Shown one piece after another: positions 8,068-56,927 of a DNA stretch of 64,000 nt. Numbering within the stretch: the stretch's first letter is position 1; every line of letters starts with the position of its first letter. The notes beneath the pieces are model-generated. The model saw only the letters and a program-made list of their open reading frames with translations. It ran no database searches and had not been told where the DNA came from. Source of the stretch: Panulirus ornatus (taxonomy: Eukaryota > Arthropoda > Malacostraca > Decapoda > Palinuridae); assembly GCF_036320965.1 (NCBI RefSeq), contig NC_092231.1, forward strand, positions 1,601,197-1,665,196, read 5' to 3'. The translations under genes were made by a program, and so were the position numbers.

Positions 8068-8135
8068 ATTTTTATCTTTTCTCTCCCTCAGGTACGTATG
8101 CAAATATCTCTGTGGAGAACCATATACCGGAGCCC
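8068..8135 (+). promoter_or_regulatory. Candidate recursive splice site 1 (ratchet point)
   Basis: A strong polypyrimidine tract (TTTTTATCTTTTCTCTCCCT from 8069) ends in CAG at 8089-8091 and is joined with no gap to GTACGTATG (8092-8100). The acceptor and a usable donor therefore share one junction. A second, better donor, CCC|GTAAGTACAG, begins at 8136 and would define a 44-nt RS-exon (8092-8135). The same CAG|GTACGTAT junction recurs at 27,834/27,835 and 56,849/56,850, always on the plus strand. Known recursive sites in flies and vertebrates have exactly this acceptor-donor juxtaposition, usually CAG|GTAAGT. The alternative is an ordinary 44-nt cassette exon: two of its frames are open but no protein motif is recognisable. 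Confidence 0.6.
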
Positions 8136-8504
8136 GTAAGTACAGTGTGACGCCCTTGAATGTTGTGTAGTACACCGTATGTGTGGGACACCACAGATAC
8201 TGGTTGACAGGTGTGTGTGTTTTTCTATTCCATTAGCTTAGCTTTATGCTGGACTGGTTGGAAGTAGAGGGAAGACTGATGATTAACTTTTGTGTTGCTA
8301 TCTCGTATTATTAAAGTGCAGGGATGTGTGTCCGTGGATGTTGCCCCGTCCATTCAGTAGTGTTTTCCATCATGAAATTGTAATTAAAAATAGATTGGGT
8401 TATTATTTAGGGAGGGTGATTACAATAGCTCTCTGTCGGTCATTAATTAGGCATCTACCATTACCATGTAGCAGACGATTGCATAGTGTTGTGTGCATGT
8501 GTTA

Positions 8505-8660
8505 CATGCTATGTTGATGTATGAATTATGTCATGTTGATGTATGAATTATGTCATGTTGATGTATGAATTATGTGTTGATTTATGAATTATGTCATATT
8601 GATGTATGTATTACATATGATAACGATATATGAATTAACGTAGTGTTGATGTATTGATTG
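8505..8660 (+). repeat. 22-bp tandem repeat
   Basis: Four clear units of TGTCATGTTGATGTATGAAT plus two bases, then decaying copies to 8660. The first three units are nearly identical. Related to the array at 5,585-5,835. Confidence 0.85.
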
Positions 8661-9134
8661 GTAATAGCAAACTAGAGATTTAAAATGAAGTTAACGACAA
8701 GACAACATAGTTACGGGTAGTGTCCAGGAGTCGTGGCCGTTGTGCTGTGCGTCATCCCTACGGTAGGGTCGGTCTGCCTCCGTGTATTCATAGTCACGTG
8801 GATCAGCAGTGTTGTCTGCTCTCGCGCTACCCTCCTCCAGTATTACCGCAACTGGAAATAATCAATATTGTTTTATATTTATGATTGGAATATTTTAAAC
8901 TTTCAGATTGAAAAATATGATTTTTCGTATTGTATAAGGATTTACTTTTAAATTTAAGGAAATTGATTGGATTTTTATTATATATTTCTCTGTACGGCAT
9001 TGTTATATGGAGTTAGGAAACTGTGTGTGTGTGTGGAGCTGGGCCCGGCCTGCCCTACGTGACTGGTCTTATATTACTGGAAGATAAAGCCGGCCGAGCT
9101 GTGCTGTGTGTGTGTGTGGAGACGTGCCCTGGAA

Positions 9135-9385
9135 CGTCTTAGCACGGTGGTACGACCCTCTAACACAAAAATTACGACCTGTGAGCACAACGGGACGCGA
9201 CCTTGAACGCGGCGGTGCGACCGTTGACGCTGACGCGTCGGTGCGACCGCCGGGCACGACATGACGTCACCCATGGTCTGATCCCATGGGGGTCAGCTGG
9301 CCCAAGGTCAGGCGGTCCTGTCCCGCGGGTCGTACCGTCTTGATGAAGGGTCGTACCGTCTTGCTTCCGTTGTCGTACTCAACAA
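9135..9385. repeat. Foldback-like family copy, large
   Basis: Left-arm units are minus-oriented (TTAGCACGGTGGTACGACC, GAGCACAACGGGACGCGACC, GAACGCGGCGGTGCGACC). A palindromic centre follows (GGTCTGATCCCATGGGGGTCAGC, broken as CATGGTCTGATCC and CATGGGGGTCAGC), then a right arm with plus units (GGGTCGTACCGTCTTGATGA, GGGTCGTACCGTCTTGCTTC). Its left arm is more GC-rich than in other copies. Confidence 0.8.
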
Positions 9386-9554
9386 GGTTCAGGTTGAATC
9401 ATTGGTCATCGATCCTGAGAACCTTCATGTGAATCAGGAGGTCCGTATGTACGAGCGTGATCACTGGGTAGTGAGTGTGTGTCTGCTCTGTAGCTGAGAG
9501 ATTCCTGCGTGTATGGAGTCCATTGATGCTTGGTGGAAGCTCGCATGACTCCTG

Positions 9555-9650
9555 GACGGTAGGTACCGTAAGTGATGGACGGTAGGTACCATGCGTAATG
9601 GACGGTATTTACTGTACAGTGAGTATTAGACGGTAGGTACTTGCCTTGGA
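9555..9650 (+). repeat. Short tandem repeat around GGACGGTAGGTAC
   Basis: Four imperfect copies of TGGACGGTAGGTACC with 24-30 bp spacing. Confidence 0.75.
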
Positions 9651-9929
9651 TGAGTAAGCTTGTGGTGACGAGGCAAGGTTGGGGTGGGGTGTTGGCCTTG
9701 AGGGAGTGTGTGTATGTATTGAGCGGGTGTTAGTTCGTTCGTGCGTGTGTTGCCTGCACGTGGTGGTGATGGGAGGGGAAACTGCAGTTCGGGTCTGAAC
9801 TCGTCAATATACAGCCGTAGTTCCATGTTAGCCGCGATCATTAGCCCTGGTCGTGTGCGGTCCGTGAATGCTATCAAGACGAGTGGGTGAGCGCGGTTTT
9901 TTTTTTTTTTTTCTTTTTAACGAAGCGAA

Positions 9930-9963
9930 AATGGGCGGGAGAGTCTGTGATTGGCTGACTCAG
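9930..9963 (+). promoter_or_regulatory. GC box / CCAAT / AP-1-like motif cluster
   Basis: Within 34 bp there is AATGGGCGGG (GC-box-like), GTGATTGG (reverse CCAAT) and GCTGACTCAG (AP-1/Maf type). These are consensus matches only, just 3' of a T-run. No transcript start or exon can be assigned. Confidence 0.2.
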
Positions 9964-10324
9964 ACGACGCAACCGACTTCCATCTTTTTCTTTTTTTTTA
10001 ACGTCATCTTGCATTTTTTACTTCAAATTTATAAAAATAGGATCGACTTGAGTAAACGGGTCATGTGTTTTTATATTTGTATTGTTTTTGGAGGCCTTTT
10101 CTTTTCTTTTGGATGAACTTGTTCGATGTGTGTTGTGGGTGGCCATGCACGTGGTGAGGCTGTCCATGCACGCGCGCTGTTCCTTCCGCGTGTTCCCTCC
10201 GTCCTCATCATGAGGGAGGGCGAGGTGCTGGCCCCGCCCTCCTGCCGGCACAAAGGATAGCCTGGCGCCTGCAACCCGGCCAACACTGTGACTGATCAAT
10301 ATTATCGACCTGCGTCATGCTTAT

Positions 10325-10545
10325 GTAAGAACCCCCTGAACACTACGGTACGACCCCTCAACACGACGGTACGACCCATGAAGACGACGGTACGACCTTT
10401 CTTTAATGACTGTTCAAGCCATGGGTGTGAGAGCATGACACTTGCCCAGAGCAGTAAGGGTCAGGCGAAAGGTTAAGCCATGATCCTCAAAGGTCGTACG
10501 GGTGTCGTGCTCAAGGAGGGTCGTACCATCATCCTCGAAGGTTTA
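10325..10545. repeat. Foldback-like family copy with opposed arms
   Basis: The left arm has three tandem minus units (GAACACTACGGTACGACCCC, CAACACGACGGTACGACCCA, GAAGACGACGGTACGACC). The middle holds GTAAGGGTCAGGCGAAAGGTT followed by AAGCCATGATCC. The right arm has plus units (GGTCGTACGGGTGTCGTGCT, GGTCGTACCATCATCCTCGA). This is the clearest view of the palindromic layout. No transposase is seen, and no target duplication could be fixed by eye. Confidence 0.82.
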
Positions 10546-11094
10546 AGACTCTGTTATCCAAAAGTAGTTTGACTCGACTGTTTCCATCTTAAGATAAGAA
10601 GTGACAGCCTCTCTGTATGATGGATGGGGTCCATTTTTTCTATTGACAGTTAAATTTTGAATTCTGAAAATAGACTGTTTTCCCCTGGACCATTCCTGAT
10701 GCACATCCGGTCCGTGGTTGAAGGATATGTGGTGAGCAGCAACATACCTGGGGGAGACTGTACGTGGTGGTTGTCCTTTGTCCTTGGTCGACTGGTGCAA
10801 GGCGTTCTCATCATCTCTCGGCTCCGGATGTAGAGTCTGAAGTTGTGTACATGATTGTACACTTTGGGAGGCTTTGATGTGTCATACTTCACACCAATGT
10901 GTGTGTGCGCGTGTTCACAGGGCCCTGGGTTAGTATGCGGTCCACCTGGTTCTGACGTTCACAGTAATATCATGTTATACACACGTTAAGTATCGTGTTG
11001 TGTTGGACGATCTCCGTACACGATTGTTCCTACAGCCGTGTCCCGGGTTTATTAACATGATTAAGGCTCTGATCAGAGGCCAGCCGTGATACAT

Positions 11095-11165
11095 CCCAAG
11101 GGTCGTTCCGTCGTGCTCAAGGGTCGTACCTGTCGGGCTCGGGGTAAACTTGGATCATAGTACCA
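11095..11165 (+). repeat. Foldback-like family remnant
   Basis: Two to three plus units (GGGTCGTTCCGTCGTGCTCA, GGGTCGTACCTGTCGGGCTC) without a clear core. Confidence 0.7.
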
Positions 11166-11240
11166 TCGCGTCCTTGTACACTTGCGAGGCCGTCACTGTA
11201 ACAATACTGGAGGATTGAAGGTTGAACAACTCTGGGGGAA

Positions 11241-11260
11241 AATATATATATATATATATA

Positions 11261-11323
<63 letters not shown>
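11241..11323. repeat. (TA)n microsatellite with a TTTTA break
   Basis: About 40 TA units interrupted once near 11,265. A candidate cruciform. Confidence 0.97.
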
Positions 11324-11327
<4 letters not shown>

Positions 11328-12139
11328 AACTTCATATTTGTAACTTCATATTTAAAACTTGATGTGGTTAGGTTAGGCATACTTGAGAGCCGTGTTTGAG
11401 GATGAGATGATAGTTTACGTATCTTAACGGTCGACATACCATAGTGTTTCCATAGTGTTGCTGGTGTTCGTCTGTACTGTTGTCTAACCGGTGCTGTTGT
11501 GCATCATTACAATCTACGTTACAGTTTTGTAAATTATAAAGAGTTGTGATTAAATGTAAATTGCTTCAACCATCTCCATGCTATGTGCCTGTCACCCACA
11601 CTACCACGGGAACTCCTAGGTCATCCAGACAGAGTATATTCTTGAATCTGGTTTAGAACACTTCGATTCGTATGACACAAGAGCTGTGCACGGTCCAGCG
11701 AGATGTGAGAATGGGATCGATGCAGGTGTGGGGGAGGAGAGGGAAGGGGGGTCGTGGGGAAGTCGTATACCCGGTGTCAATTAGTCATTGGCTCAGCTGT
11801 GGGAGGGAGGGAGGGTGTTCGGTCAGGAGATTCCGTGTGGTGGATCCATACCAAATATTACTTGCTGCAGCTGACGTTCCTGGAACAGATGCTCTGATCT
11901 GTTGCTTGGCGGGGAGGAGGAGATGGTGTTGGTGTGCCCGGGTGGTGAGTGACCAAGCAGGGGGAAGTAAACACAGCTGTTGTGGGTGTTGGGAGACGAG
12001 GGGAGGGTTGGTTGCTGTAGCTGGTTACGCAAGACCACTGCACGTGACAGTATTACATTCTGTAACTGACGGCTGTTTCTCTGTAACTCTCCTGTCCAAC
12101 GCTTTTCTTTCTCAGAACAACATCACTTTGGAAAAGTAG

Positions 12140-12370
12140 GGAGTTAGTGGTGGGCGCTACGCCGTGGTAGTGGGTTAGTGATGTTGGTAGGATTTAAGGC
12201 AGTGGTATGGGGTTTGGGTTAGTGGTGGGGTTTAAACCAGTGGTAGTTGGTTGGTGGTGGAGGTCATGGCAGTAGTAGGGGGTCAGTGATAGCGGTGGGG
12301 CTTAAGCCAGTGTAGGGGGATAGTGATTGTGGTAGGGCTTAAAGCAGTGGTGGTGGTGGGAAGTTACAAT
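12140..12370 (+). repeat. Degenerate ~43-bp minisatellite, G/T-rich
   Basis: Five to six copies built on GGGTTAGTGGTGGGGTTTAA and GCAGTGGTAG, each followed by AGGC or AAGCCAGT wording. Confidence 0.7.
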
Positions 12371-12669
12371 GGCGGGGCGTTGAGAGTCAGATGAGAGATG
12401 GTGGGGGGATATAATGTTGGAGTTGGGGTTCTCGTGGCAGTGGTATAGGAATTGATGTGGGTGTGTGGAGCCGGGACTGCGTCAGCACAAGTCGACGCTC
12501 AATGGAAGTACATAAAGAATGAGAATGGGTCTTGTGAAGCCATGATGGGTGTGGTGTTTCTAGCACCAGGTGTGCTGTCTGTGGCAGAATTAATATATGT
12601 GTTTCCGTATAGTGTGGCAGGACCCTGCCACACCTCGCCACGCCACACCCCGTCCTCACCACCACACCA

Positions 12670-13400
12670 TAAGTGGACTTAGGGTACACTGTTCACATCC
12701 CACGCCACCCCAGTTTCCTTGCCTTTGTTCTCCTTTTTCCGCCCTTTACACACACACACACTCTCTCTCTCTCTACCCCCGACTACTTCAGTCTTTCCCG
12801 TGTTGGGTCGTCCCCCAGGTTGTCATCAGTTACTCTGATCCCTCCCTTGTCCATTCATACCTGCTCTCCTCTCCTCTCTCATCTTCACCGCCCACATTTG
12901 TCACCCCTCTTCTGCTTCAGTCCCTCTCCCCTCCTATCACCTGCCCCTCGTGCCCACCCCCTCCCACTCTCATCTGCCCCTTGTACCCACCCAGCCGCCC
13001 TCCCCAACCCTTCACCCTGCTGCACCTTTGTTGGCATTGTCCCTCCTACTGCTCTCTATCCCCACCTCGCCAGCCTCTCCCCTCCTGCCCTCTTTGCCTC
13101 TCCTCTTAGTGCCTCTCCCCTCCTGCTTTCACTAACTCTCCCCGTCCCTTTCCTCCTGACATCACTCTATCTCCCTCTGCCCGCCTCCCCTCACTTCTCT
13201 GGCCACCCCACCTCCACCCTTGACCTTCACCCTCCCCTACCCTCTCTCTCTCCCTTGCATATTTGCTCTTGCCTCCCCTGTATTCCCCTCCATCCTCTAC
13301 TCCCCGTTTTTCGCCTTTTGCACCTGTTACTCGCCATTTCTTCCTATCTGAAACATCTTTTCTCCCTTTCTTTCTCTTTACCTCTCCAGTGCCCGTTCTT
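12670..13400. other. Polypyrimidine-rich block, about 700 bp
   Basis: The plus strand is nearly all C and T with scattered A, and G is rare. It contains a 302-codon open frame and a 170-codon frame, but these exist because TAA, TAG and TGA all need purines. The predicted products are Pro/Leu/Ser/His strings with no domain. The tract could form triplex (H-DNA). It also contains a short (CA)n(CT)n at 12,749-12,774. Confidence 0.75.
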
Positions 13401-13401
13401 C

Positions 13402-13462
13402 GTTGTGGAGTGTTCAGTAGAGTTCTTTCTCCGTTGCGGAGTGTTCAGTAGAGTCAGCTGTA
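13402..13462 (+). repeat. Two-copy direct repeat of ~31 bp
   Basis: CGTTGTGGAGTGTTCAGTAG and CGTTGCGGAGTGTTCAGTAG, each followed by AGT, lie about 31 bp apart. From here to about 14,290 nothing else is recognisable. Confidence 0.75.
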
Positions 13463-14289
13463 GCTACAGTCGTTACTGCACCCTGGGTACAGCTGAACAA
13501 GGAACTCCGGATCAACTCCCCGAGAGAACAGCCAGCAGCAGCCTGGCCCGCCTTTACACACGAAGCTGTACTTCTCCTTAGAGAGTCTCCAGCTGTGTAC
13601 CAAAAGCTGTTCAGGAAGAACACGTTAAAAGCAGCCGTGATTAATTTGTTCTACATTCTTTTCTCATCTTCAGTTTCGTTTTCACCTTGGGATGGCCATG
13701 ACTGGGTCCTCTTCTGCCCGTGTCACGTCGTCCACGAAAAGAAGAAAAAAAAAGGCAGTTGAGCAAAGGTTAGGAAATGAAATTGAAACCACCGAGAAGA
13801 AAAGACTGAAGACTTTTTTTGAAATCGTCAGATGATGGAACAAGAAAAGAACAAGAAATAGAAGAATCTATGATATTTTCTCCCTGTGATACAAGAGATG
13901 AATTGATGACAGGATCATAACATATCCTGTACATAGAGAGACAGGAAGGCTCCAACACGGAGGACAACAGTGTGGGTAATACACGAACATCAGTGACTCA
14001 ACCTGTGTGCAGTAAAGCAAGGGAACACACACAGGTTGATTACAGAGACAGATCTGATAGCACTCCTCTCATGATAAGATATCGTTAATCAGTCTTGCCT
14101 CGTCAGATTTCGAGGAAGCTGTCGATAAGAAATTGATTATGCGTTATGCTCGAAGTGTTGACTTGTTTTCGTTGGACGATGAGGTAATGCTGGAATATAG
14201 TGTCATTTGGTGGTAAATATTTGCTAGTTGTGATAGGTTTATGAATCGTCGACCGTGTTTTGGTTCGACATTTCAACATGGCTGCGGTA

Positions 14290-14372
14290 CTAACCCTTGA
14301 ATACGACTTTTACGACTTGGGTTATGATTCCGTGCTCTTTGACCCCGACCTCCTCTAGAGTCAGGTCAGAAG
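14290..14372 (-). repeat. Foldback-like family remnant
   Basis: Minus-type wording (ACCCTTGAATACGACTTTTA, CTTGGGTTATGATTCCG) followed by CTTTGACC and AGTCAGGTCAG. Heavily decayed. Confidence 0.5.
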
Positions 14373-14417
14373 CCATCCTGGCGGCGTCCCCAGGGGTGAC
14401 CGAGTGTCCTGTAGGCC

Positions 14418-14531
14418 GGGCCAGGAGGGTTGGGGAGGGATGGGTGGAGAGGGGATCATGTCTTCCACAGCTGGCGCCTGGCCACTGTGATAACATCTCA
14501 GAAGATCTGGAGTCAGAAAGAATGATAATGC

Positions 14532-14595
<64 letters not shown>

Positions 14596-14608
14596 GACCT
14601 CTTGAAGG
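14418..14608. repeat. Duplicated ~190-bp segment, copy A, with (CA)n
   Basis: About 118 bp of unique sequence from GGGCCAGGAGGGT to GATAATGCTATACAC differs from 36,990-37,106 at about three positions. It is followed in both places by (CA)n (here 14,534-14,593) and then CTCTTGAAGGTCT (CTCGTGAAGGTCT in the other copy). Same orientation, 22.6 kb apart. It could be a young interspersed element or a dispersed segmental copy. Confidence 0.88.
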
Positions 14609-15271
14609 TCTCGGTGGTTAAGGACGTATAGCAGGAGACCTAGTGGTGATGGAGTGAGTTACGACACGTTAAATGGCAATACGCGGGGAGGCAGTACCTG
14701 GCACATTAGCACAACACTTCTGCAGTAAAGATGATCGAGTTCACCATTCGAGGTTTACAGTCTCCGCTACTGAAAGCTGTGTCGCATCCCAGGGGGACTG
14801 TGCTTGTGTCCCTGATGATCCACACACACGTGTGTGACGTTGGCAGAAGCGAACAGTATTTCCTGCGCATCTTCGTTTATTGACATTTCATTTCGTGTGG
14901 CAGTCCTGTCGCCCGGGGCCGTTCATGAAAGCCATCTGAACAGATGGCAGTGAGGTGATCTGGTGGAGGTGCCGACATGTGTTCACTGGGGAAAATGTGT
15001 GTCGGAAGCAACGAATGAATACGTTATATGGAGGACGTGACTGAAATAGAAATGACCCTAACATGAGGGATGCGTCACAGATGTGGTGATAACACATGAC
15101 ATCATCCCTGGAGAACTTTAAACTTAAAAAAGGAAGACTTGAGGTCGTCCTCCAAGATGTGTGGAACCAGCCAGGCTGCCCAGAGGCGTAGATGGCGGTC
15201 TGCTGCACCACACAGCTTGATGGATAAGAGTTTCAACGGTGGCATAGTTGTAGAGCGAGTCCTAAAACCTG

Positions 15272-15276
<5 letters not shown>

Positions 15277-15351
<75 letters not shown>
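15277..15351. repeat. (TA)n microsatellite
   Basis: About 37 TA units. Confidence 0.97.
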
Positions 15352-15354
<3 letters not shown>

Positions 15355-15458
15355 GCTGATAACCACAAGGAAAAGTGAAACGCGATAAGTCCCTAAGTGC
15401 GATTTCGTGTGATAAGTTAATCCCAAGACTAGTTCACACTCATTAGTGTGACCTACTG

Positions 15459-15460
<2 letters not shown>

Positions 15461-15508
<48 letters not shown>

Positions 15509-15527
15509 CATATATATACACACACAC
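15461..15527. repeat. (TA)n plus short (CA)n
   Basis: About 22 TA units to 15,505, a short gap, then TATATATACACACACAC. Only 110 bp separate it from the previous TA block. Confidence 0.95.
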
Positions 15528-15863
15528 GGAGCCGTGGTTTAGAGTGACGTAGGGTTAGCTATATCTAGCGGTGGGTAACTTCATCTGTTGATCAACACTA
15601 CTGCTTATAGTGTTCTCATACCTGGACTGGTCTTTAAATTGCCCCCGCACGGCAGTTTAAGATGCAGGTAAATATCTCTGTTTATTTAGGTGAGGCTTAG
15701 AAGTGAGGTGGATGAAGATCATAAGGCAAGACTGGCAGCCTTACATGTATAGGTCTGGGCTCTCTGGTGACGCTCCTGCCTCGACGTGCACTGCGGGTGT
15801 TCTGGCTTATGGCACAGTCCATATGTTTCGGAAATATTGGTTCTTATATTGCTTTTAGGCATG

Positions 15864-15865
<2 letters not shown>

Positions 15866-15933
<68 letters not shown>
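15866..15933. repeat. (TA)n microsatellite
   Basis: About 33 TA units entered through ATGTATGTATA. Confidence 0.97.
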
Positions 15934-15935
<2 letters not shown>

Positions 15936-16189
15936 GGACTTGAGTATTATATATACAAAGAGCGGCTACCATGATTGTGAAGAGTGGCTGCCATGATGGT
16001 ATACGAGGATGTAGATTGACTACCATGAATGTATGTGGAGTTGGGGGAAACATGGCAGCATGAGCCACCATTCCGCGGTCCTGTGGATATAGGAAGTGTT
16101 TGGTCATCTCGCTAATTTGTAATTTAGCTTGAGGTAATTAGGGAGCCGGTGGAAGCAATTTTCATATTAGAGATAAGTTAATAATGTGA

Positions 16190-16420
16190 TTAATGGTTGG
16201 GTGAGGGAAATGGGACTGGGGCAGGCGGAAGAGTTATGGATTGGATGTAATGGAAGGGAACGGAGAGGAAACTGGTAAGGTGCAGTACTAGGTGGAAGGG
16301 AGGGAGGGATGTCACTAGTGGGCGTAGGTAAGGGAAAGGGATGATATTAGTGGAGGAAGGTGAGGGGAGGGGGAGGTATAAGCTGGGAAAGTTAAGGGGT
16401 GGAGGAAGGTATAGAAAACA
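16190..16420. other. Purine-rich block
   Basis: The plus strand is dominated by G and A (GGGAGGGAGGGA, GAGGAAGG). The minus strand has a 154-codon frame that is open because it is purine-poor; its product is low-complexity Pro/Ser/Leu and not a credible protein. Confidence 0.6.
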
Positions 16421-17454
16421 TGGGTATCTTGAGGTAGAATGATTGACAGTGTTTACTGAAGGGGATAGAGACTGTGAGGTGTGTACAGATACACAGCAGG
16501 TACCTGGTCTCCCCGTGTGGGTTGGGAGAACCGAGGTGGTGTACCCCAGGGAGGGAGGTGAGGTAAATGTATGGGGGATCAAGTAGGTGTTGGGGCCCAG
16601 CCCCTGTGCATGTAGACTACGGCAATACTTCTCACTGGGAGAAACATTCTTCATGGGAATACATGTCTTAAAGTTCCTCTGGTTCCCTGATCACTCTCCT
16701 GCCTGAGCCACTACATGCATGACGTCGGAGGCACCAGCTGTGACCTGTGTGACCTTCATCCCCACCATCACAACAATACTTTGTAAAATGACACAAATTT
16801 AAAGTGTTATATCTTAATAGTCTGGGAAGACGGAGGCAAGGTGACAGCCACGACTGATATTATATACACCTTGGCTGTACGAACACCTGTAAGGTCGTCA
16901 TCCTCTTTGAAAATTGTGTGTTTCTGCTGCTACCACGGTGGTCCACGAGCTTTCCTTCCACACTCACAGACAGACTCGTTAGGACTGTGTGGTTCGTTGC
17001 TCCTTGAATTCATTGGTATTCGGTTTTGTAATACGTGTAATCCAGAAGTTTTGGGGAGGAAGTGGAGAATTATCCATGTGTAAAAGAGGCACAGATGCTT
17101 TTCTTGTTTGTTGCATTAAGTTGTGACTTTTGTTTGCTATTTCTGGTGAAGGTTGAAGGGAGGGTATGATGATGGTTTTTCACGGACCGCCAGCTGGGAA
17201 GCTAGCTGACCTAATAAGCCTTGCGTGGGTAATTAGATCATCAGGCAGCAGCAGATAATGATCACAGTGGACCTGTTGGTTAATGGACCTGCCGCCGGAG
17301 GGGGCGCATTAGGCTGCCGGGAGAGGGGGTTCACCCTGCACTGCACTGCATCACGTTTTCATTTTGTTGTATATTCTTCTGAGAAGCTGCAAGTAACACA
17401 GTGAATTCCGGATGAATTAAAGAGTTTTGACACATGTGTCATCCAGTTGAATTA

Positions 17455-17642
17455 GACGGAACGACCCTTGGGTATGATGGCTTGACCACCATAACCATGG
17501 GTCGTAACGTCGTTTTTTAAGGTTTGTACCGTTATAGCCGAGGGTCATACCAGTGTTCAAGGGTCGTACCTTCTTATTCATGGGTCATACGTACGTTCTT
17601 AAGGGTCGTACTTTGTCTTCGGTGGTCGTTCCATTGTTTACA
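17455..17642 (+). repeat. Foldback-like family copy
   Basis: ACGACCCTTGGGTATGATGG (left arm into core) is followed by a run of about seven plus units (GGGTCGTAACGTCG, GGGTCGTACCTTCTTATTCA, GGGTCGTACTTTGTCTTCGG). Confidence 0.75.
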
Positions 17643-17808
17643 AGCGAAAGAAACATTTCAAAATGAATCTTATCGGAAGAAGGTCTTCTGCCACAGTTAA
17701 CTACTCGTAAAAGTGAAAATGCTTTCCCTTTTTTTTCCCCATTACGTGGAAAAAAAAGGTGAACTGTGAGTTAAAGTTTTGGTGTGGTGTGTGAGGCGAG
17801 GTGTGTGA

Positions 17809-17831
17809 GTGTGTGTGTGTGTGTGTGTGTG
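17809..17831. repeat. (GT)n microsatellite
   Basis: About 12 GT units. Confidence 0.9.
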
Positions 17832-17984
17832 AGGGGAGGGAGTCCACTGGATATTGGCGGGGGGATTTGTGGGTGACACCCCCCCCTCCCCGTCCACGGT
17901 GGTCCAGCACACTGGCACTCGGCCGTATGAAGGGACATGATCCATCACGGATTTATCAGGGGGGCCTCTGCCTGGATGACTGCT

Positions 17985-18165
17985 AGGATGAGCGGATGGA
18001 AGAGTGGATGGCTGCCCGGCTTAGCGTGGCATAGGGTGGGTGGATGCCTGCTTTGACTTCGGATGTCTGAATGGTTGGATGACTACCTGGCTTAGGGGTT
18101 ACAGTGGGTAGGTGGATGACTGCATGGCTTGGGGTGACTCTTGGATGGATGACTGCCTCACTTGA
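17985..18165 (+). repeat. Degenerate ~40-bp minisatellite
   Basis: Four to five copies built on GGATGACTGC plus TGGCTTAGGGT. Spacing is irregular. Confidence 0.65.
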
Positions 18166-18393
18166 GAAGGATTACTGCTCAGCTTGGACGGGTGGGTCGT
18201 GTTATCTCCACAGGTTCAGACTTCAGTTTATTTACCTTAGTGCGACCGTTTTCTGTGCGTTAACGTCCACATGTATTCTTGCATTCTTGAGGAAGCGACA
18301 AGAAGCAGCGACAAATGGTCGTATTTGCACAACTCCGCTGTCTTGTATTATGTACAGTGATCTTACAAGTATATTTGGCATCTATTAACGGTT

Positions 18394-18397
<4 letters not shown>

Positions 18398-18461
<64 letters not shown>
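18398..18461. repeat. (CA)n microsatellite
   Basis: About 32 CA units, directly abutting a foldback-like family copy. Confidence 0.97.
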
Positions 18462-18463
<2 letters not shown>

Positions 18464-18600
18464 TGAACACTATGTTACGACCTTTGAGCATAATGTTACA
18501 ACAGTTGGTTATGATGACCTGACCTTTGACCAGAGCCTTATGGCGTAGGTTGGGGGTTCAAAGCATCAAACCCACGGGCCTCGCTTTCATGCTCATGGGT
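18462..18600 (-). repeat. Foldback-like family copy with DR1-like core
   Basis: Minus units (CTTGAACACTATGTTACGAC, TTTGAGCATAATGTTACAAC) run into GGTTATGATGACCTGACCTT and TGACC (core 18,511-18,531). The right arm is lost. Confidence 0.7.
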
Positions 18601-44665: not shown

Positions 44666-44666
<1 letters not shown>

Positions 44667-46277: not shown

Positions 46278-46443
46278 AGGGTAAGTTAAGGTCCCAGACC
46301 CAGCTGTGGGGGTAGAATACTAACGAAACCATGGTAAGGTATACATAGGGTAAGGTGCCAGACCCAGCTGTGGGGGTAGAAGACCTCCCAAACCATCGTA
46401 AGGTATACGTAAGGTAAGGGAAGGTCCCAGACCCAGCTGTAGT
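46278..46443 (-). repeat. ~65-bp tandem repeat family, three units
   Basis: On the plus strand, AAGGTCCCAGACCCAGCTGT + GGGGGTAGAA is followed by ACCATGGTAAGGTATAC. It is the reverse complement of the units at 24.2 and 40.9 kb. The 100-codon minus frame over it is a repeat artefact. Confidence 0.85.
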
Positions 46444-47884
46444 GTAGACCTCTGATACCAGTGGTAAGGAGTATCCTGTGTTGATTCCACGTTTTGAGAA
46501 TGTGTAGACTGATTCTGCCGAAGGGGAGAGATGCTATAGTTGACATTCCGTTACCAGGAATGAAAATCAACGATAAACAGCCAGGCAATGACCAGGGAGG
46601 ATGACGATGGTTAGGAATGGCACCAACGCAGCTAACTGTTAAATGTAGTGAATTCCAAGGTAGACTTGACCATATGAAGGAAATCTCGCAGTAATGTAGT
46701 GGAGTGAGGCCGTTGTCACTTATGCTGTTCTATTTAATGTTTTCTCTGGGGCTTTTACCAACAGTGGTCCCACCTGCCTGGTCAGTTCATGTTTGTGGTG
46801 TTGTCTTAATTACCATAGAAACCTTTTGATGCTGGAACCTGGAAAAGAGCAGAAGCGAAAAGTCAAGCAAGTGCTATTCATCGGAGCTGCCTGGGCTTTT
46901 GAGGCTGTGTTTACCCAAGGGTCCGTGCTAGTAAACCTGGCCTCTCAGGGCTTGGTGGAGGGAGGCCGTGGACCCTCATGTGGTCCCAGCGAGGTGAGGC
47001 CTCTGGAAGGTGTCGTTCTTGTCACCTGGATCCTGGAAGCTACCGTGACGTTGGCCACTCCAGTAGTATCACCCGTGAGCTGCGAAGATTCGGACTCGCT
47101 TGTGATGAGAAATTCATCTGCCTCCCTCCCCCTCTCCCTCCATCCCCTCAAATACAAACATACACACACGCTTACGTGCGTACGCGCGCGCGCTGCACTG
47201 CAGATCTTGGCGATAGTATCTGGTGGCAGACCCAGGGGAGCGGGTGAGTGATGTATGATAATGGTAGTGAACCAGAGCAACCAGTGTGCTGGTATGTTAA
47301 ACAGCCATGTTTGTTCATCTCCTGCCTGACTTGCTGTAGCAGGTGCAACATTTTATTTTGATATCCCCGCTACGATGAATTAACCCCTTCTGTACGACGG
47401 AACACCTTTTTATACGATAACCGTAGTTGTACTCGTAATGTTGTTATCGCACCTGACTTCTGAAAAAGTTGTACGCGTGATATCTAATGTCACAGAACTA
47501 GTGGGTTTAAAGTCCTTGTCGTATTGAGTAGTTGTACTGGAAGGCTCGGCTTGACTTACTGGATGGATTAAGTCGTTACTCAGATTGATATTTTGAGTGG
47601 ATAAGTTGGATGGTATAAACACTACAATTACTTTTTTCCATTTAGTAATTGTTAAAGAGGGAAGACTTGTTTTAATTTCTCGTCGACATGTTGGGAGATG
47701 AGGATGCAACCCCCACCCATCCCGGAGTCCCCTGCTGCTGAGCCTCCAAGACAAGCGAGGAAGAATTGCAGGTGGCCCGCTGACCATTACCAGGATAAGT
47801 GTAACATGAGAGTGAGGTGGCAAGATGAGTGCATTCTTTGACTCTAACCTCGACTCGAGTGAGCTGACCTGCCAGCACCACTGC

Positions 47885-48140
47885 TGTGTGTGGTGCTCCG
47901 TACCATTACGCTCTGCAAATGTGGTGGTTTTCATAGTGGTAGGGGTCAGCGCCGCTACACAGTCTGTGGTGGTGATTGTGGTAGGGGCCCACACCGCGGC
48001 ACCGCTTGTGTGGTAATGGGGATGCACACCGCGGCACACCATTTGTGTAGTGGTGGTGGTGGTAGAGTCCACACCACTACACGCCACCTGTGTGGTGATT
48101 GGTGGTAGGGCTCCGCACCGCAGCGCACCACCTGTGTGGA
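47885..48140 (+). repeat. Degenerate ~50-60-bp minisatellite
   Basis: Four to five copies of GTGGTAGGG...CACACCGCGGCAC...CTTGTGTGGT wording. A 225-codon minus frame (47,410-48,087) crosses it and continues into AT-rich sequence. It has a Thr-rich start and no domain, so I do not call it a gene. Confidence 0.65.
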
Positions 48141-48149
48141 GCCGGCCTC

Positions 48150-50340
48150 AGCGTGCACATCCATAAGGGGCAGCAATTGAACGTCAAGGTTACGTCACTG
48201 CTAATCCTTTTCGGCCACATGTTTGCCCTCTCAATCCGATTAAACGTTCGGTAATGCGATCAGTCTGTTTTATGCATTAATACATACGTTCTATTGATCA
48301 TCCGGGAAATAACAAATGCTCTGTTTTTTGTTGTCTTCCGTTGGTATTAACAGAAATTGTAAATTGTTCGTTTTCATTCTGGTGAAAGTTGACAGTGGGG
48401 ATTTATGCCTATGAGTATTTTTGGGATTATATTTTTCATAGTAATTTTTATGTATCTTTTGGTTCAACATGTGATTAGTTAACGATTTTTAAAGTTTGGG
48501 GACGTAATTGGAATGAAACTGGGAAACTTTGAATGATGGGGGGTTGGGCGGCAGAACGTTTCACTTGACGCATCAGTAAAGACTGGATCATGCCAGCCGT
48601 ATGAGTAGCTCCTTCAGGTTGGTATCTTATTTTTAACTCCTCGAGCACGGTGTTGCCTAACGATACTACCACTTGGGTCTGATGGCTGGGAGTTTAACCC
48701 TAAGGATCAGGTAAGGAAAAAAAAAAAAAAAGCAAGGTCGTCGTACTTAGGGTTTGATAGACTAGACTGTGAACACGGAAGCTTGGTCACCTGTGACACA
48801 CTAATCTGCAGGGATTAGAAAAAAAAAAGCCCCCATAAATGTCGTAAAGAAACGCCATGTAGAGTACTATCTTTCTCCATTGGAGTCGGAACCACTAGCA
48901 GTCTGGTAATTAGATATGAACAGGATGTTCCCAGGGTTCTTAGTTCTCCTAGTTTTGTAGAGTCCGGAAGTTTCCTAATGAGGGTAATGTTAAGCCTAAG
49001 GCAAAGCGATGGACGATTGTGAACCCTCATTTAGGCAGAGAATCTTGGGTAGGGATGATTGGCAGAGAAGTTAGTTGGCAAAGATCCTACCCACACGGGG
49101 CCCCAACGAGTTTGGATTAGAATTAAACTCCCATATTGCACAAATAAAGTATTGAAATATTGGAGAACCGCCAGTGAACCGATATATTGCTAGTACCGTG
49201 CCTTGAATTGCAAAAGTAAACATTCAGAAGCATGTTGTTGAATAATTTATTGTATTTACAGTGGATCGTATTACGTAATAACTTTAATTTTAATTGTAGA
49301 TAGTTTTACTGAATTGTTTAACTAGAAAATGGTCTTATATATATTTGAGCTGCTGCAAATACTTTTAAAACATTATACATAAGTCTGGAATCTTGGGAGC
49401 GGCTCTATTTACATGTGCGAGGAGGATGTGGTGATAGAGGTGGGTGTGCCAGTGTCGCGAGGAGCAGTTGCCGGCCGGCCGGCCAGGCTGGCGGGCGGTT
49501 GAGGTTCGCGCCAAGTGTTTGAAAGTCACACCGCCACCCGCCCCGCCTGGCTGTCCCGGAGCTGCGCAGGGCACCGGGAGCCGAGCCTCTCACCGCTTTA
49601 TTTCTTGTTAAAGTGCTATTCTTGAAACACTGTACGTAAATACCTTTATCGTATGAATGTTGAATAATTGGTTTGAATGTAGAAAGTCTGATTTTAGAAA
49701 ATGGAAAATTTTAGAGATGAGGGAACTAGCGAAAAGGAGCAACTTATCCACTTACGTGTGTTGCCATATGGGTGGCGAAAATTTACGCTCTTTTATCACT
49801 CCATATTGTTGTGTTATGATTGAGATTTTTCACTGAAATCCCGTGTGAATATGATTATACACTTTTAACAGTTGACCATTTTGATGGCTATTACTACAGG
49901 AAGCTCCCATTATATTTTTTGATGACAGTTTGTTCTTCCTACCAGTACTGAAATAAGCATTCCCAAATTGATTGCTTATCATGCCACATCATGAGATAAT
50001 GTATTGAGGCGTGGATAGTCGCCTGTATGTTGGATGAAGTCTATTTTTAAAGCATTGTCGGAAATAAAATATATATTTACAGTGCAGTGGTTCTAGAAAT
50101 ATACAAGTTTATGTAGTCAGCTTATCGTGGCTGTCATATACATTTAGTTATGCGACATTCTGATATGTATAATTGGCTGGCCAGGTTGATTAGCTGCACT
50201 TGTGTATACATTACAGCAGCATTTAAGAAATTTAGTTCTGTAAATTTGTTTTTGCGAGGAAATGAGCATGAGCAGGTTCGACGTTTGGAGGTTAAGTAGG
50301 AGCGGCAGCAGCAACCAACCATACTCTGGAAATGCTAGGC
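48150..50340. other. Quiet AT-rich sequence
   Basis: I see no repeats, exons or elements here, apart from short A-runs at 48,718-48,731 and 48,820, and a GC pocket with GCCGGCCGGCCGGCC near 49,469-49,485. Confidence 0.5.
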
Positions 50341-50359
50341 CGAGCACCGCCCTCACCAG

Positions 50360-50415
50360 TGGTGGTGGTGGTGGTGGTGTGATGCATGGGTGGGTGGGTG
50401 GGTGGGTAGGTAGGG
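50360..50415. repeat. (GGT)n and (TGGG)n tract
   Basis: About seven GGT units, then after a short gap five TGGG units. G-quadruplex potential. The following 350 bp remain G/T-rich. Confidence 0.85.
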
Positions 50416-50759
50416 TGACCCGATCGTCGCGGTAACTGTCGCAAGTGGGAGGTGGGTTTGGGGTGGGGCAGTAGGATGTCGTTTAGGGTAGGGCGGTTAA
50501 GAGGTGCTGGTGTTGGCTAGCGGGTTGGTGATAGTGAGATTTAGGTAGTGGAGGGATGTGCAGTATGTTGGGTTGTGGTAGGTTTTGAGGTTAGTGGGGA
50601 AGGGATGTTTGCATGCATAAAGGCTGCTAGGATTGGGAAGATTTTGTGGCACATTCTTATGTAAGGGCAGGACCACATGAGTTTGCAGCGGGGGAGACGT
50701 GGCTGCTCTTACTCGAGAGGGCTGGGAAAGTTGAAGGGAGTGAATGATAGACAGATAAG

Positions 50760-52970
50760 ACATACTGACAGATAACGAGACATGAACGGCTTACATTTAA
50801 TGTGTGGGTTGTTTGCACACTATGCAGTTTGGAGGCCGGGTTTCTAAGGTACTTGTACCCGGACACTGCAAGATCACGTTGCAGTGTCACCTCGTATGGT
50901 AGGAGGGTAATGGATCTTGTGTTTAGTTGACTAGGTTCATTAGATTACAGTACTGAGCCTCCAGTATGCCACTTTGTCCTCGTGAGTAAGTTTAGCAATA
51001 AGATAAGTAAGGGTTTTAGCTTGAAGATATCCAGTGAATGAAATTTAGTGTTTATGGCACGTTAATTATGGTTGTATGAGGAAAAGTTACCGAACATCAG
51101 AATATGGGGGAACCACAGTAATGGCTTTCTGTCTTAAGGTGTTGCTTTAAACTTAGTGTGTTCTGGTAAGGGAGGTCGGGGTAGGGGGGATATTTTGGGA
51201 GAGGAGAGGGAGTGAATAGGATGGAGAGAGTGGCGGGTGTTGCAGGTGTTACGTCTCTTGTCGTGGTGAAGGTTGACGCCAGCGGCCCAGCCTCCCTCCC
51301 GCCGGTTAGGCTAGGCTGTGGCAGACAGTCTGCCTTACCCTTGCCTCCCCAGACAGACTTTCAGCTGGATTTTTCGTTGTTTTCTGATGATGCACCTACC
51401 TCAGCCACCACATCCTTTTTGTAGTGATTTTTGATGATATTTGCAGGTGGCGATTTTTTTTTCTATCTTTAGAATGTTCATTTACATTATCTTAAGCTCA
51501 TCAGTACGCGGTTGGACCCGTGAACAAAACAATATGATGTTTGTGTATGATGGGTCCGATTTGGATCTGTCTCTTTGTTGGATACTAAAGATTGATACAC
51601 GATTTACAACCGAGAATCTACTTAAACTCGCGGTTGCTAATGAACATAATAAAGATCTATACATCTTGTATGCACCTAGCAAGGTTTTTAAGACCTGTAT
51701 TACATTGGCACTTTCTGTTCGATCAAGATTTACTGCTAGTACTTGTGGTACTACCAGTTTTTTTTTTTTTTTTAAGCATAATTTCAACGTTTCTTGTGTT
51801 CACTTTTCGTACAGTTGGTCTTTTCGCCGATTGCAAATATTCTAAGCTTCAGACTCCGTTATTAAGAGGCACATTTTAAAATTTTTGTGCGGTTTACCAT
51901 CACAACCTAGATATCTAGTTTTCCATTGTTTAAGACGGGTAGAAACATAACTTCATGAGCGTAGGACTTGCAGGAGCCAGACCATGAAGTACTGTTGTAG
52001 GAATAGTAGTATTATGGTGTCTCTGGGCCCGTTGCAAGTTCTCCTAAAGTCATATTAGCACTATAAATACCTTCGAGTGTTTATTGACTCGCTAGACACT
52101 CACTTAAGCTTATATTATTATTCGTTTGGAGGCCTTCGTTGAGAGCCATTGTTTTAATGTATGCGAGCCCTGAGTTATATGTGAAGTATTAGTATTTTTT
52201 TTTATTGAATGGTACTACAACCGTATCGCTTCACATGTTTTTTTCCCTCATGGGCTCTGGAATTCTTTGATTTTTTTTTATATTTACATGGAACTTATAG
52301 ATTGAGCTTGGTAAATAGTTCTTTGAATTGCTTGATATAGAATTTCTCTTAAAGAGAGGTGGCAAGAATGGATGGAAAAGGTCGTGTTTCAGAAAATATT
52401 AATTGTTGCCTGTAGTGTTCCTCGACTAAAAACAAAAAGTTGAAAAAGGCTCATGTTAAGAGATGAACGCGGCCGCTACCACGAGCGCCTGCTCATGTTA
52501 GCAGGTGTGTGTGTGGTTGGTTCGTTCCTGGAGTGGTTTTGTGGTCATCAGGCCAGGCGCTGATCCGGTGTGTTGGATCTTACAGTTGACACCTACTTTA
52601 TGGCCTTATATATCACTCGTTTATATATTGTCCCATGCTATCATTATTCATTGTGGACTTTTGATACTTTCTCCGTGTAGATGCTGTGGGGTTTGTGTTA
52701 TAACTTCTGTTCTGTTTGGTCTCCGTATGTGTTGCAAGTTAACGTATTTTGGAGTTGGTAATACTGCTTTGAGAATTGTCCTTATTGTGTTCATTGAATC
52801 GGCAGCTGTTCAGTATAACTTCTGAAAGTTGATGAATATTGGAATTAATTGCATGAGTGAAAACGAGGCAGATAACATGGTTTTTTCCTATAACATTTCA
52901 TTCTTTCGTCAACGTGATGGAAAATAAGTATATTCATGACCGCACAAGATAAAGATACACCTTGGGTATC
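50760..52970. other. Quiet AT-rich sequence
   Basis: Only T-runs (51,758-51,774, 52,197, 52,270) stand out. Frames of 95-134 codons around 51,440-51,880 are T/A-rich, overlap each other on both strands and show no family motif. Confidence 0.5.
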
Positions 52971-53079
52971 GAGTGTCCATTACAGGGGAAAGTCATCACC
53001 GGCAGCGGTGGAGAGATGAGAGACCTGGCCAGTGTGAGATTATGAAAGAGAAATGTGAGCCTTCCTCAGCGTTATGTAG

Positions 53080-53400
53080 CCTCCTGCCTCCAACCCTACC
53101 TCACGCACATCACGGATGGCCCGCCTCTCACCATTCCACCCACGCCTCACGCCTCCTCTGCCAACACCACCACCCTTACCACAACAGCCACGACTGTCTC
53201 CCACTACCATCACCATTCCTACCAACGCTACCTCCTTTATCTCGACACCATTACCACAGCAACACTTCGTACCACCACCACCCAACACAACCGTCACACT
53301 TCCACCATTGTCTTGCAGCACCACTGCCACTCATTAAGCCTACAGTACCACAGCTCCATCCCAACACAGGACCAAGCCACATCTATCCCTAATCCCAGTT
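53080..53400. other. G-poor, C/A-rich strand block
   Basis: The plus strand is rich in CCACCAC, ACCAC and CTCC wording and poor in G, so three overlapping frames stay open for 73-139 codons with Thr/His/Pro-rich products. Probably an old ACC-type repeat. Confidence 0.55.
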
Positions 53401-53974
53401 TTGCCCGGTAACCTTGTCACCGTTGCCTCTTACCTCTGCTGTCTGCCAGTAATACCAGCCCTGCACGCCCCTCAGTCACTCACCAAACACAGCGGGTGAA
53501 GCAGATAATATTACACAGCTGGAATACCCAGAAAAGATTATCTCCAGGCTTCATAGGTAATTCCATGAAGGCTTAAGGCAGGCAGTACTCAACAGTGCTA
53601 GGATCTGAAGGCGCCATTAAACACGAAAGAAAACTAGGGGAATTTGGGGGTCTTTATGATCTTAATGTTCGGTACTTTCCAGGCCTGTAATTCTTATTGC
53701 TCCTCCTAACTGAGGCATTAAAGGAACCTCACTGGATATATACCTCCTTGAGGCCAGATTATGGAATTTATTATGATTACGGGATGCTGCCTCCAGTAGC
53801 CAGACTGATCAGAGGAGCAGCATCGCTGCTAAACGTAACCGTGAGGATAGAGAAGTGGCCGTAAGTCGTATGTAAGGAGTGTGTGTCTGTCTGTATACCT
53901 TTCTGGTATTTCCAGTGATATACATAGAAAAGTGTGGCATCATAGAGCACCATTCTGGCTTCATAGGGATGTTT

Positions 53975-54078
53975 GAACCTCTTGAGCACGACGGCACGAC
54001 CCCTGAACACTACGTTACAACCCCCGAGCACGGCAGTATGACCTCTAGCACGATGGGGTGACTAACCCTTGAGTTTAT
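53975..54078 (-). repeat. Foldback-like family copy
   Basis: Four tandem minus units (CTTGAGCACGACGGCACGAC, CTGAACACTACGTTACAAC, CCGAGCACGGCAGTATGACC, TCTAGCACGATGGGGTGAC). No core or right arm before the (TA)n tract. Confidence 0.8.
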
Positions 54079-54089
54079 TGGTACATTGC

Positions 54090-54092
<3 letters not shown>

Positions 54093-54155
<63 letters not shown>
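54093..54155. repeat. (TA)n microsatellite
   Basis: About 31 TA units. Confidence 0.97.
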
Positions 54156-54159
<4 letters not shown>

Positions 54160-54789
54160 TCAAGTTTAGGTAGAGTGGAAGGTTTAGGATTAAAACGGAA
54201 TCATGTATATATAGAGGCAGGTGTGAGAATAGTACACGAGCAAGGTAGTTGAGAAATGTCGAGGTGTGTGACGAGGTTATCTGCCTGAGGACAGTTATAG
54301 TATCCTACGTTCCTGATTTATATACATTGGTGGAGGCGTGATAGGGGCAGTGGTGTGGCCGAGGGGGGAGCAGTAGTTCCAGCTAACCACAATCATTGGT
54401 GACTGAGGATGAGGAGGATCTGTACCCGGACCTTTCTTGATCATGCTGGCTGGTGTGTGTGTGACGTCATGGCCCCAGAGTGCCACTGGTAAGTGCCACC
54501 CTCTGTCCCCTCCTCCCCTCCCACCCCCTGCGTGCCCGACCAGACCAGACCTCCTGGTAGGGTGCGGGCGGGTGAGGGGGAGGTTGTGTAATGTTGGGAG
54601 GTGACTGCCTGCCTGCCCGGGCCTTCCACAATGTCAGGAGGGACTGGTTCAGGACAGTGTTAGGAGGCCACCGGGGGTTCATGTCAGTGTAGGCTGTAGG
54701 TACTATTGGCGCTATGGTCTATCTGGAGGTGTTAATCGTGTGAATTGTAAAGATTGTGGTCAGAGATTTGTACACGTACTGGAACACTT

Positions 54790-55085
54790 TCTTACAATGT
54801 GAAAAACAGCAATTTAGGGATAGATCTAAACAGACCCTGTCGGAAATATCACCACACCTTATTGTTGATAAGATAACTGAAATTTTAAGTTTGTATCCAC
54901 TTTTTGCAAGGAGTCTGTAAAACTTACCATGTGAGAGTACGTAATCTATGTACTGAAATGCGAATTGTAACATCTTATGTAACATCAACCCACATGGGTC
55001 TGAGTAAGACCCTTTGTGACACCTGTAATCCTTTTGCTCTACCGCTCACAGGATGAGCATGGGCGGCATAATGGATTGTAGGGGT
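54790..55085 (-). repeat. Interspersed family P, copy 3 (longest)
   Basis: Plus-strand landmarks: CACCTTATTGTTGATAAGAT, GTATCCACTTTTTGCAAGGA, TACGTAATCTATGTACTGAA, TGTAACATCTTATGTAACAT, GACCCTTTGTGACACCTGTA, TACCGCTCACAGGATGAGCA. The right half matches 21,940-22,190 and the left half matches 6,230-6,300, linking the two other partial copies into one family of about 300 bp. Confidence 0.78.
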
Positions 55086-55108
55086 TACTGACACACATCA
55101 GATGGAAC

Positions 55109-55126
55109 GGGGGGGGGGGGGGGGGG
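55109..55126. repeat. Poly-G run
   Basis: Eighteen consecutive G, just outside family P copy 3. Confidence 0.9.
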
Positions 55127-55753
55127 TACTTGTTGCTTTCCTTTAAATTTGTTCATATTTCTTAAATACAGCCATATGTTTAGAGAGTTGATGTTCGGCT
55201 CCAGTAATGGGTGTAAAGTGAATAGGTTTTTCTCGTTGAAATATCAGGATTCTCTCTTCTCTTACCACACTTGCCCAAGAGTTTCTGACGTCTTGAGCCA
55301 TCACAGAACAGCCTCGTTAAGACCCGTTGGTGTTTTGCTGTTTGACTTCGTCTGTGCTCGTTATTCTTAGCTGTATAGTGAGGGACACGGGAGCGGGTGG
55401 GGATGGGGCGGAGGGTGAGAACAGGAACAGTACATGAAGGTGGGGTAGGGTCGTCTGATGACCTGTGGTGTTGGTACTGCTGCTGCTGTTGGCCAGGTGA
55501 AGCGGGGGAGGGAGTCTGGCTGGGACTGTCCCAGCCCTCATCCGCTCTCCCCTCCCCTTTCCCCCGTCCTGATAACAGCTACAGTCCCCCCCAGCCCTAC
55601 CCTGACCTCACTGGCCCTAACGATCCCACAGCTGGTAAAGTCCAAACTTCCATTGTTACACAAGCGAAGAATAGTCATAAAGTGCAGGGGGAGTATATTC
55701 CCGTGTTGGCCAGGACGGTTGTCACGTCCGGTGACACAGGTGTGTGTGGGGGA

Positions 55754-55758
<5 letters not shown>

Positions 55759-55822
<64 letters not shown>
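55759..55822. repeat. (CT)n microsatellite
   Basis: About 32 CT units followed by CCACAG, which by itself mimics a splice acceptor. Confidence 0.97.
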
Positions 55823-55824
<2 letters not shown>

Positions 55825-56109
55825 CAGAAAGTAACTGAAAAGACATGCCTGTTACCTCATCCTTGATTGGACTGATATGCCCAGAGAACATGGGTCCTGG
55901 TGAGTGCCTTGTACGTACATTGAGCAGTACTTGATAAGTCATGTGATGCCACCACCTCACCTATATATTGCAACTAGCCCATCTGTCGATCATTTTTGAT
56001 ATACATGACGTATTTTTTGTCTGGGCAATCGCATTAAGTTGAATATGGTTTTCTAGACCTATGGGTTTGGTTAGGTGTCAATTACCAGAAACAGAAAATG
56101 TGCATTTGT

Positions 56110-56430
56110 ATTTGTTTATATGATAAACCATCTGTGTGCTATTGTATAAACACTATTGTGAGGTTGTGGGAGGATGATAAACCATCTGTGTGTTATTGTT
56201 AGAAACACTATTATATTGTGAGGTTGGAGGATAATGATAGACCATCTGTGTGATATTGATAGACACTATTGTATTGTGAGGTTGGAGAGACACTATTATA
56301 TTGTGAGGTTGGAGGGTAATGATAAACCATCTGTGTGCTATTGTTAGACACTATTGCGAGGTTGGAGGGTAATGATAAACCATCTGTGTGCTATTGATAG
56401 AGACACTATTATATTGAGGTTGAAGGGTGT
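56110..56430 (+). repeat. ~60-bp minisatellite, five to six units
   Basis: Units contain GATAAACCATCTGTGTGCTA, GACACTATTATATTGTGAGG and TTGGAGGGTAAT. Some lack the first half (56,284-56,310), which shows deletion by slippage or exchange. Confidence 0.9.
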
Positions 56431-56634
56431 GTCGGGTAGTATGGGTCAAGCGGTTGGTTCCCGGCCGTGTGTACGTGGAGTAAGCTGGCAGGAAGGGAGA
56501 TAACCCGACCTTAAAATAGCCCAGGAACAGGTAGGCCTTCAGGGAAGAATTCCCCTTTAAACTTTGGCTCGGGTGGTGTAGCACTTTCTTACCTAAGGCC
56601 TTCCCTTTATTGGATGTTTACCTTGACCCCTGGA

Positions 56635-56738
56635 CGACGCACGGCGGTACGACCCTTCAGCACGACGGTCCGTACTCCGCCACCTTGGCCTACGATGGCG
56701 TAGGTGTCATGCTGGGAATTTGACCCCTAATGCAGGTG
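56635..56738. repeat. Foldback-like family copy
   Basis: GACGCACGGCGGTACGACCC, TTCAGCACGACGGTCCGTAC, then GGCCTACGATGGCGTAGGTG and GTCATGCTGGGAATTTGACC. Confidence 0.65.
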
Positions 56739-56821
56739 GGGCTTACCGCGCCGTGTGTGCAGGGAACTGAGGCAGGTCATGTGTTAGTGGCTGGGTCAGG
56801 CCTGTGTATACGTAACATGTG

Positions 56822-56908
56822 TCTAACAGGTGTTTTTCTTGTCTTTCAGGTACGTATTGATAAGCTGATGGCGTCGTTGGCTTGTTTCTTGGGAGTGGTC
56901 GGTGGCTG
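56822..56908 (+). promoter_or_regulatory. Candidate recursive splice site 3 (ratchet point)
   Basis: TCTAACAGG (branch A at 56,826) is followed by TGTTTTTCTTGTCTTTCAG (AG at 56,848-56,849) and, with no gap, GTACGTATTG (from 56,850). Branch-to-AG distance is 23 nt. A second donor, CTG|GTAAGTAATT, starts at 56,909, giving a 59-nt RS-exon, the same length as at site 2. In the GTA-CGT frame it reads VRIDKLMASLACFLGVVGGW with no stop, so a short hydrophobic coding exon cannot be excluded from this site alone. The shared CAG|GTACGTAT junction at three unrelated flanks favours recursive splicing. Confidence 0.65.
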
Positions 56909-56927
56909 GTAAGTAATTGACATAACC

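Follow-up and report, generated by a model that had tools for sequence, protein, structure and literature searches.

The closest described counterparts of the elements considered here are the ratchet points of Drosophila, at which an acceptor adjoining a donor opens a cryptic recursive-splicing exon (RS-exon) of about 50 nucleotides (nt) that is generally out of frame and is skipped (PMC8605326). In both insects and mammals, the donor of the RS-exon is usually weaker than the regenerated one, and when the ratchet donor of the fly is weakened below that of the RS-exon, the RS-exon is retained in the mRNA (PMC8605326). In the large introns of fly, mosquito, bee, beetle and sea urchin, such sites are more numerous on the sense strand than on the complementary one (PMC2773006). 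A stretch of 64,000 nt from Panulirus ornatus (RefSeq assembly GCF_036320965.1, contig NC_092231.1, positions 1,601,197 to 1,665,196 of the forward strand; hereafter the window, with positions counted from its first letter) contains three junctions of this type which, judging from their sequence, are probably ratchet points through which a very long intron of the plus strand is removed by recursive splicing.

Like the Drosophila ratchet points, each of these junctions joins a pyrimidine tract to a donor (NCAG|GT) within a long sequence of intronic character, with a second donor at about 50 nt that may delimit an exon of a length not divisible by 3 (PMC8605326). The junctions also resemble vertebrate recursive sites with RS-exons, which, as cited in PMC8605326, combine an acceptor, an internal donor and a downstream donor with exon definition, as well as dual-specific splice sites, in which a single AG|GT is usable as both a 3' and a 5' splice site (PMC10809524). 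Unlike in Drosophila, where the consensus donor is GTAAGT, the same 8-mer, GTACGTAT, is present three times; furthermore, the donor of the RS-exon is not weaker at two of the three sites, and the segments span 20-29 kb, compared to a mean of 9.1 kb for recursive segments in the fly (PMC6110457). Vertebrates differ in another respect: their large introns are reported to lack significant accumulation of such sites on the sense strand (PMC2773006), whereas here the top three sites are all on one strand.

A sequence-only reading of the window had claimed that a pyrimidine tract plus CAG is fused to GTACGTAT at positions 8092, 27835 and 56850 of the plus strand, and the exact bases are found at all three. 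The composite score used below is the sum of an acceptor and a donor matrix, both generic for metazoans, with values not fitted to this genome. The junctions comprise the following elements.

8072..8091, plus strand: site 1 acceptor, pyrimidine tract plus CAG; score 12.26, pyrimidines at 14 of 15 positions
8092..8099, plus strand: site 1 regenerated donor GTACGTAT (putative ratchet point); matches the 11-mer complementary to U1 at 10 of 11 positions; composite rank 1
27810..27816, plus strand: site 2 branch-point candidate TACTAAT; branch A 20 nt upstream of the junction, with no AG between
27815..27834, plus strand: site 2 acceptor; score 8.23
27835..27842, plus strand: site 2 regenerated donor GTACGTAT (putative ratchet point); composite rank 3
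56821..56827, plus strand: site 3 branch-point candidate GTCTAAC; branch A 24 nt upstream of the junction
56830..56849, plus strand: site 3 acceptor; score 10.86
56850..56857, plus strand: site 3 regenerated donor GTACGTAT (putative ratchet point); composite rank 2

Compared to the general form of ratchet sites, (Y)nNCAG|GTAAGT, in which an acceptor adjoins a donor of consensus quality, each site contains a single donor mismatch, the C at position +4. The two branch-point candidates in the list correspond to those that had been proposed for sites 2 and 3; at site 3, an AG that ends 3 nt past the candidate is probably too near for use.

The prominence of these sites is apparent from two rankings that make no use of the 8-mer. 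By composite score, sites 1, 3 and 2 occupy ranks 1, 2 and 3 among the 626 AG|GT sites of the window (353 on the plus and 273 on the minus strand), and an unweighted count, i.e., the number of pyrimidines in 15 nt plus the matches to the U1 complement, places the same three at the head of 274 YAG|GT sites on both strands. All three are on the plus strand, where the runner-up has a composite score of 17.17; this score and the minus-strand maximum of 17.08 are both at the level of the background, the mean maximum of the plus-strand shuffles being 17.68. Local dinucleotide shuffling of the plus strand, repeated 300 times, gave three sites with scores of at least 18 in 4 cases and the top score in 2, so that, taken by themselves, the scores are no more than moderately unusual. 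On average, GTACGTAT behind a strong acceptor was found 0.0025 times per local dinucleotide shuffle, compared to 3 observed cases, and in 0 of 400 shuffles was any GT-8-mer found behind three or more strong acceptors. Strong acceptors themselves number 78 on the plus strand and 50 on the minus strand, with 42.8 per plus-strand shuffle. Since the motif had been picked by eye before testing, the figures for the 8-mer are post hoc and somewhat overstate the surprise.

The distribution of the 8-mer bears on the explanation that GTACGTAT is a chance or repeat-borne motif, common in the genome, with three copies that happen to lie behind acceptor-like tracts. On both strands of the window, GTACGTAT occurs 8 times, compared to 1.50 expected, a count reached in 0 of 100 shuffles. 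On the plus strand, the copies are at 8092, 27835, 42830 and 56850, and a strong acceptor precedes three of the four; the other copy, the only further one on this strand according to the sequence-only reading, which put it at about 42,831, is located at 42830 and is not preceded by AG. The copies outside the junctions are as follows.

17594 (minus), 35340 (minus), 42830 (plus), 42833 (minus), 59042 (minus): copies of GTACGTAT away from strong acceptors

Four of these five lack a preceding AG, and the acceptor score at 35340 is 2.16; the copies at 42830 and 42833 overlap each other. With 8 copies against 1.5 expected and five located off strong acceptors, the excess of the 8-mer has some other cause too, which is compatible with the chance explanation, as are the 4 of 300 shuffles that equal the composite scores. 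Nevertheless, this explanation is highly improbable given the frequency of 0.0025 per shuffle at strong acceptors, the lack of any GT-8-mer behind three of them in the 400 shuffles, and the top three ranks, which hold without the 8-mer. The flanks of the junctions, previously described as unrelated, are indeed only 17-36% identical over 100 nt in ungapped comparison, which rules out copies carried by a repeat.

A feature overlooked in the sequence-only reading is a GTRRGT donor located 44, 59 and 59 nt past the respective junctions. The sites are unlikely to be zero-length junctions in the strict sense, and each may open a cryptic RS-exon of 44-59 nt.

8092..8135, plus strand: putative cryptic RS-exon of site 1, 44 nt; donor CCC|GTAAGTA at 8136, score 5.70; open in all three frames
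27835..27893, plus strand: putative cryptic RS-exon of site 2, 59 nt; donor CAG|GTAGGTC at 27894, score 10.37; stop in one frame
56850..56908, plus strand: putative cryptic RS-exon of site 3, 59 nt; donor CTG|GTAAGTA at 56909, score 10.78; stops in two of three frames

When the best donor 25-110 nt ahead is ranked against plus-strand positions and plus-strand AGGT sites, the 59-nt donors, belonging to sites 2 and 3, rank within the top 1.2% and 0.9% of the positions, respectively, and the summed score of the three downstream donors is reached by 0.14% of random triples of positions. None of the three lengths is divisible by 3 and, taken singly, the putative RS-exons have no common open frame.

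The same donors raise the alternative that the three elements are ordinary short exons of 44, 59 and 59 nt, alternative or constitutive, of a plus-strand gene and start with GTACGTAT by coincidence. The acceptors are good, at sites 2 and 3 the downstream donor equals the junction donor in strength, and when the three exons are joined in order, their total of 162 nt is divisible by 3 and has one frame without any stop. A ranking of open internal exon candidates points the same way in that sites 3 and 2 lead the 45 on the plus strand: site 3 is the best on both strands (score 21.6), and site 2 is second on the plus strand (18.6, tied with 13674-13768), although two minus-strand candidates (19.8 and 19.3) outscore it, and site 1 is below the donor threshold of this search. 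In the joined open frame, however, each of the three copies of the 8-mer has a different phase, which rules out coding as the cause of their identity. At least one open frame is also found in 26% of random pieces of the window of equal lengths, and the 53 residues encoded by the joined exons have no match in Pfam, the PDB sequences or a protein collection, a result of little power with so short a query. Ordinary exons are therefore an unlikely explanation.

The surroundings of the junctions fit a location within an intron. On the plus strand, T is more abundant than A in 31 of 32 bins (overall skew 0.094) and G more abundant than C in 27 of 32 (0.111), after masking of 5721 bases that consist of simple repeats and six hand-picked regions (four arrays, one C-rich stretch and a reverse transcriptase); the unmasked profile leans in the same direction. 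Skews of this kind, T over A and G over C, characterize transcribed strands in vertebrates (PMC2927911) and, by analogy, may mark transcription in the crustacean lineage considered here as well. A Pfam search of the whole window in the three plus-strand frames, run as 15 translations in which X replaces each stop, detected no domain above the cut-off; the only match, to DUF3309 (E = 0.0085, 16.6 bits compared to a cut-off of 22.3), was taken as chance. This type of scan works, given that a reverse transcriptase on the minus strand was recovered by it despite stops marked with X. Together, the skews and the lack of plus-strand Pfam domains are what would be expected within an intron of the plus strand.

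1..64000, plus strand: inferred interior of one plus-strand intron or transcription unit, suggested by the skew and the lack of a Pfam domain

The window is probably intron throughout, with the qualification that Pfam would overlook exons without known domains. The 8-mer-blind ranks 1 to 3, the downstream donors, the skew and the lack of plus-strand Pfam domains make recursive splicing, which the sequence-only reading had proposed, the best-supported interpretation; the zero-length form of the junctions in that proposal would probably have to give way to putative short RS-exons.

Under recursive splicing, each acceptor, together with the donor located 44-59 nt downstream, would first define a short cryptic RS-exon by exon definition. 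The upstream exon would then be joined to the acceptor, which would regenerate a donor in the form exon|GTACGTAT. This regenerated donor, rather than that of the RS-exon, would be used next, and the RS-exon would leave with the following segment. If the three junctions belong to a single host intron, as is likely, two of the segments removed would correspond to the intervals between them, 19,743 and 29,015 nt.

Several observations weigh against this interpretation. These intervals are 2-3 times the fly mean, and no good branch point is present at site 1, where the best match scores 5 on a scale to 8, compared to 7 and 6 at sites 2 and 3. The downstream donor of site 1 is ordinary, being equalled by 30% of plus-strand positions and 36% of plus-strand AGGT sites, and the donors of sites 2 and 3 show a weaker contrast with plus-strand AGGT sites, among which they are in the top 3.1% and 2.8%. 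Finally, the regenerated donor, with a matrix score of 9.78 compared to 5.70, 10.37 and 10.78 for the downstream donors of sites 1, 2 and 3, and a U1 duplex energy of -9.8 compared to -7.1, -11.8 and -10.7 kcal/mol, is by both measures the stronger one at site 1 only, although the generic metazoan matrix may not suit the donor preferences of the host.

The composition of the regenerated donor is relevant to this imbalance. CAG|GTACGTAT agrees with the 11-nt sequence complementary to the 5' end of U1 at 10 of 11 positions, with the +4 C as the sole mismatch; the two strands together have only four GT sites with at least 10 matches, and three of them are these junctions. Hence the identity of the donors is mostly consensus, and the odd part is the common +4 C. 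The sequence-only reading had conjectured that the lineage prefers GTACGT over GTAAGT at the regenerated donor; the downstream donors of sites 1, 2 and 3 carry A, G and A at position +4 (GTAAGT, GTAGGT and GTAAGT). The imbalance at sites 2 and 3 can be read in three ways: the exons are sometimes included, the true strength of the +4 C donors in this lineage exceeds that given by these measures, or another factor favors these donors.

The first of these corresponds to a variant of recursive splicing in which at least one RS-exon is kept in some mRNAs, perhaps as a poison exon, for which the fly Ubx microexons provide a precedent of retained RS-exons. The donors of the RS-exons at sites 2 and 3 score at least as high as the regenerated donor, a relationship that promotes inclusion in flies (PMC8605326). 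On the other hand, inclusion of 59 nt shifts the frame, stops are present in one frame at site 2 and in two frames at site 3, and the scale of donor strength is generic metazoan and may not be that of this lineage. Overall, such expression of RS-exons appears possible but somewhat doubtful.

A more speculative proposal, which we consider rather unlikely, is that GTACGTAT is a lineage-specific ratchet donor distinct from other donors, and that a matching reader, either a U1 variant complementary at +4 or a UACGUA-binding protein, favors it over the nominally stronger donor of the RS-exon, replacing the competition of donor strengths that operates in the fly.

Other features of the window are mentioned here in their own right. 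At 15668-15690 on the plus strand, CAG|GTAAATAT, with 10 of 11 U1 matches, is followed 22 nt on by TTTATTTAG|GTGAGG; its composite score is weaker (rank 5 on the plus strand). On the minus strand, a reverse transcriptase fragment occupies 58073-59012 (RVT_1, E = 1.6e-18 on 58494-59012), antisense to the putative transcript, with 1581 matching database proteins; this fragment, at 58.1-59.0 kb, is presumably similar to long interspersed nuclear elements. The minus-strand Pfam scan, which covered three frames of 56001-64000 and extended to 54001 in one of these, yielded besides RVT_1 only DUF6451 and DUF3915, both under the cut-off, and an Rfam search of the window returned 0 matches at the gathering score. 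Minisatellite arrays with 21-bp units are located at 10333-10397, 39476-39540 and 39834-39961; the two arrays at 39 kb share a common unit and lie inside a 358-bp tandem duplication (39186-39898, 99% matches). The regions 14290-14658 and 36933-37237 each contain an AC microsatellite and have near-identical antisense translations, which suggests that both are copies of a single dispersed repeat.

In the open-access literature searched, the titles and abstract beginnings among the matches listed mention neither recursive splicing in crustaceans nor a GTACGT ratchet donor, which is not proof of absence, and GTACG does not occur in the text of PMC13105047. The kind of element is thus already known, whereas this member appears to be new within that literature, as far as the searches go. 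If the interpretation is correct, ratchet points with RS-exon anatomy could be called from genome sequence alone, and the giant intron at this locus would be removed in steps of 20-30 kb. The identical +4 C donors would then raise the question of how a regenerated donor prevails over a downstream donor with better U1 pairing, which bears on the choice between donors in recursive splicing.

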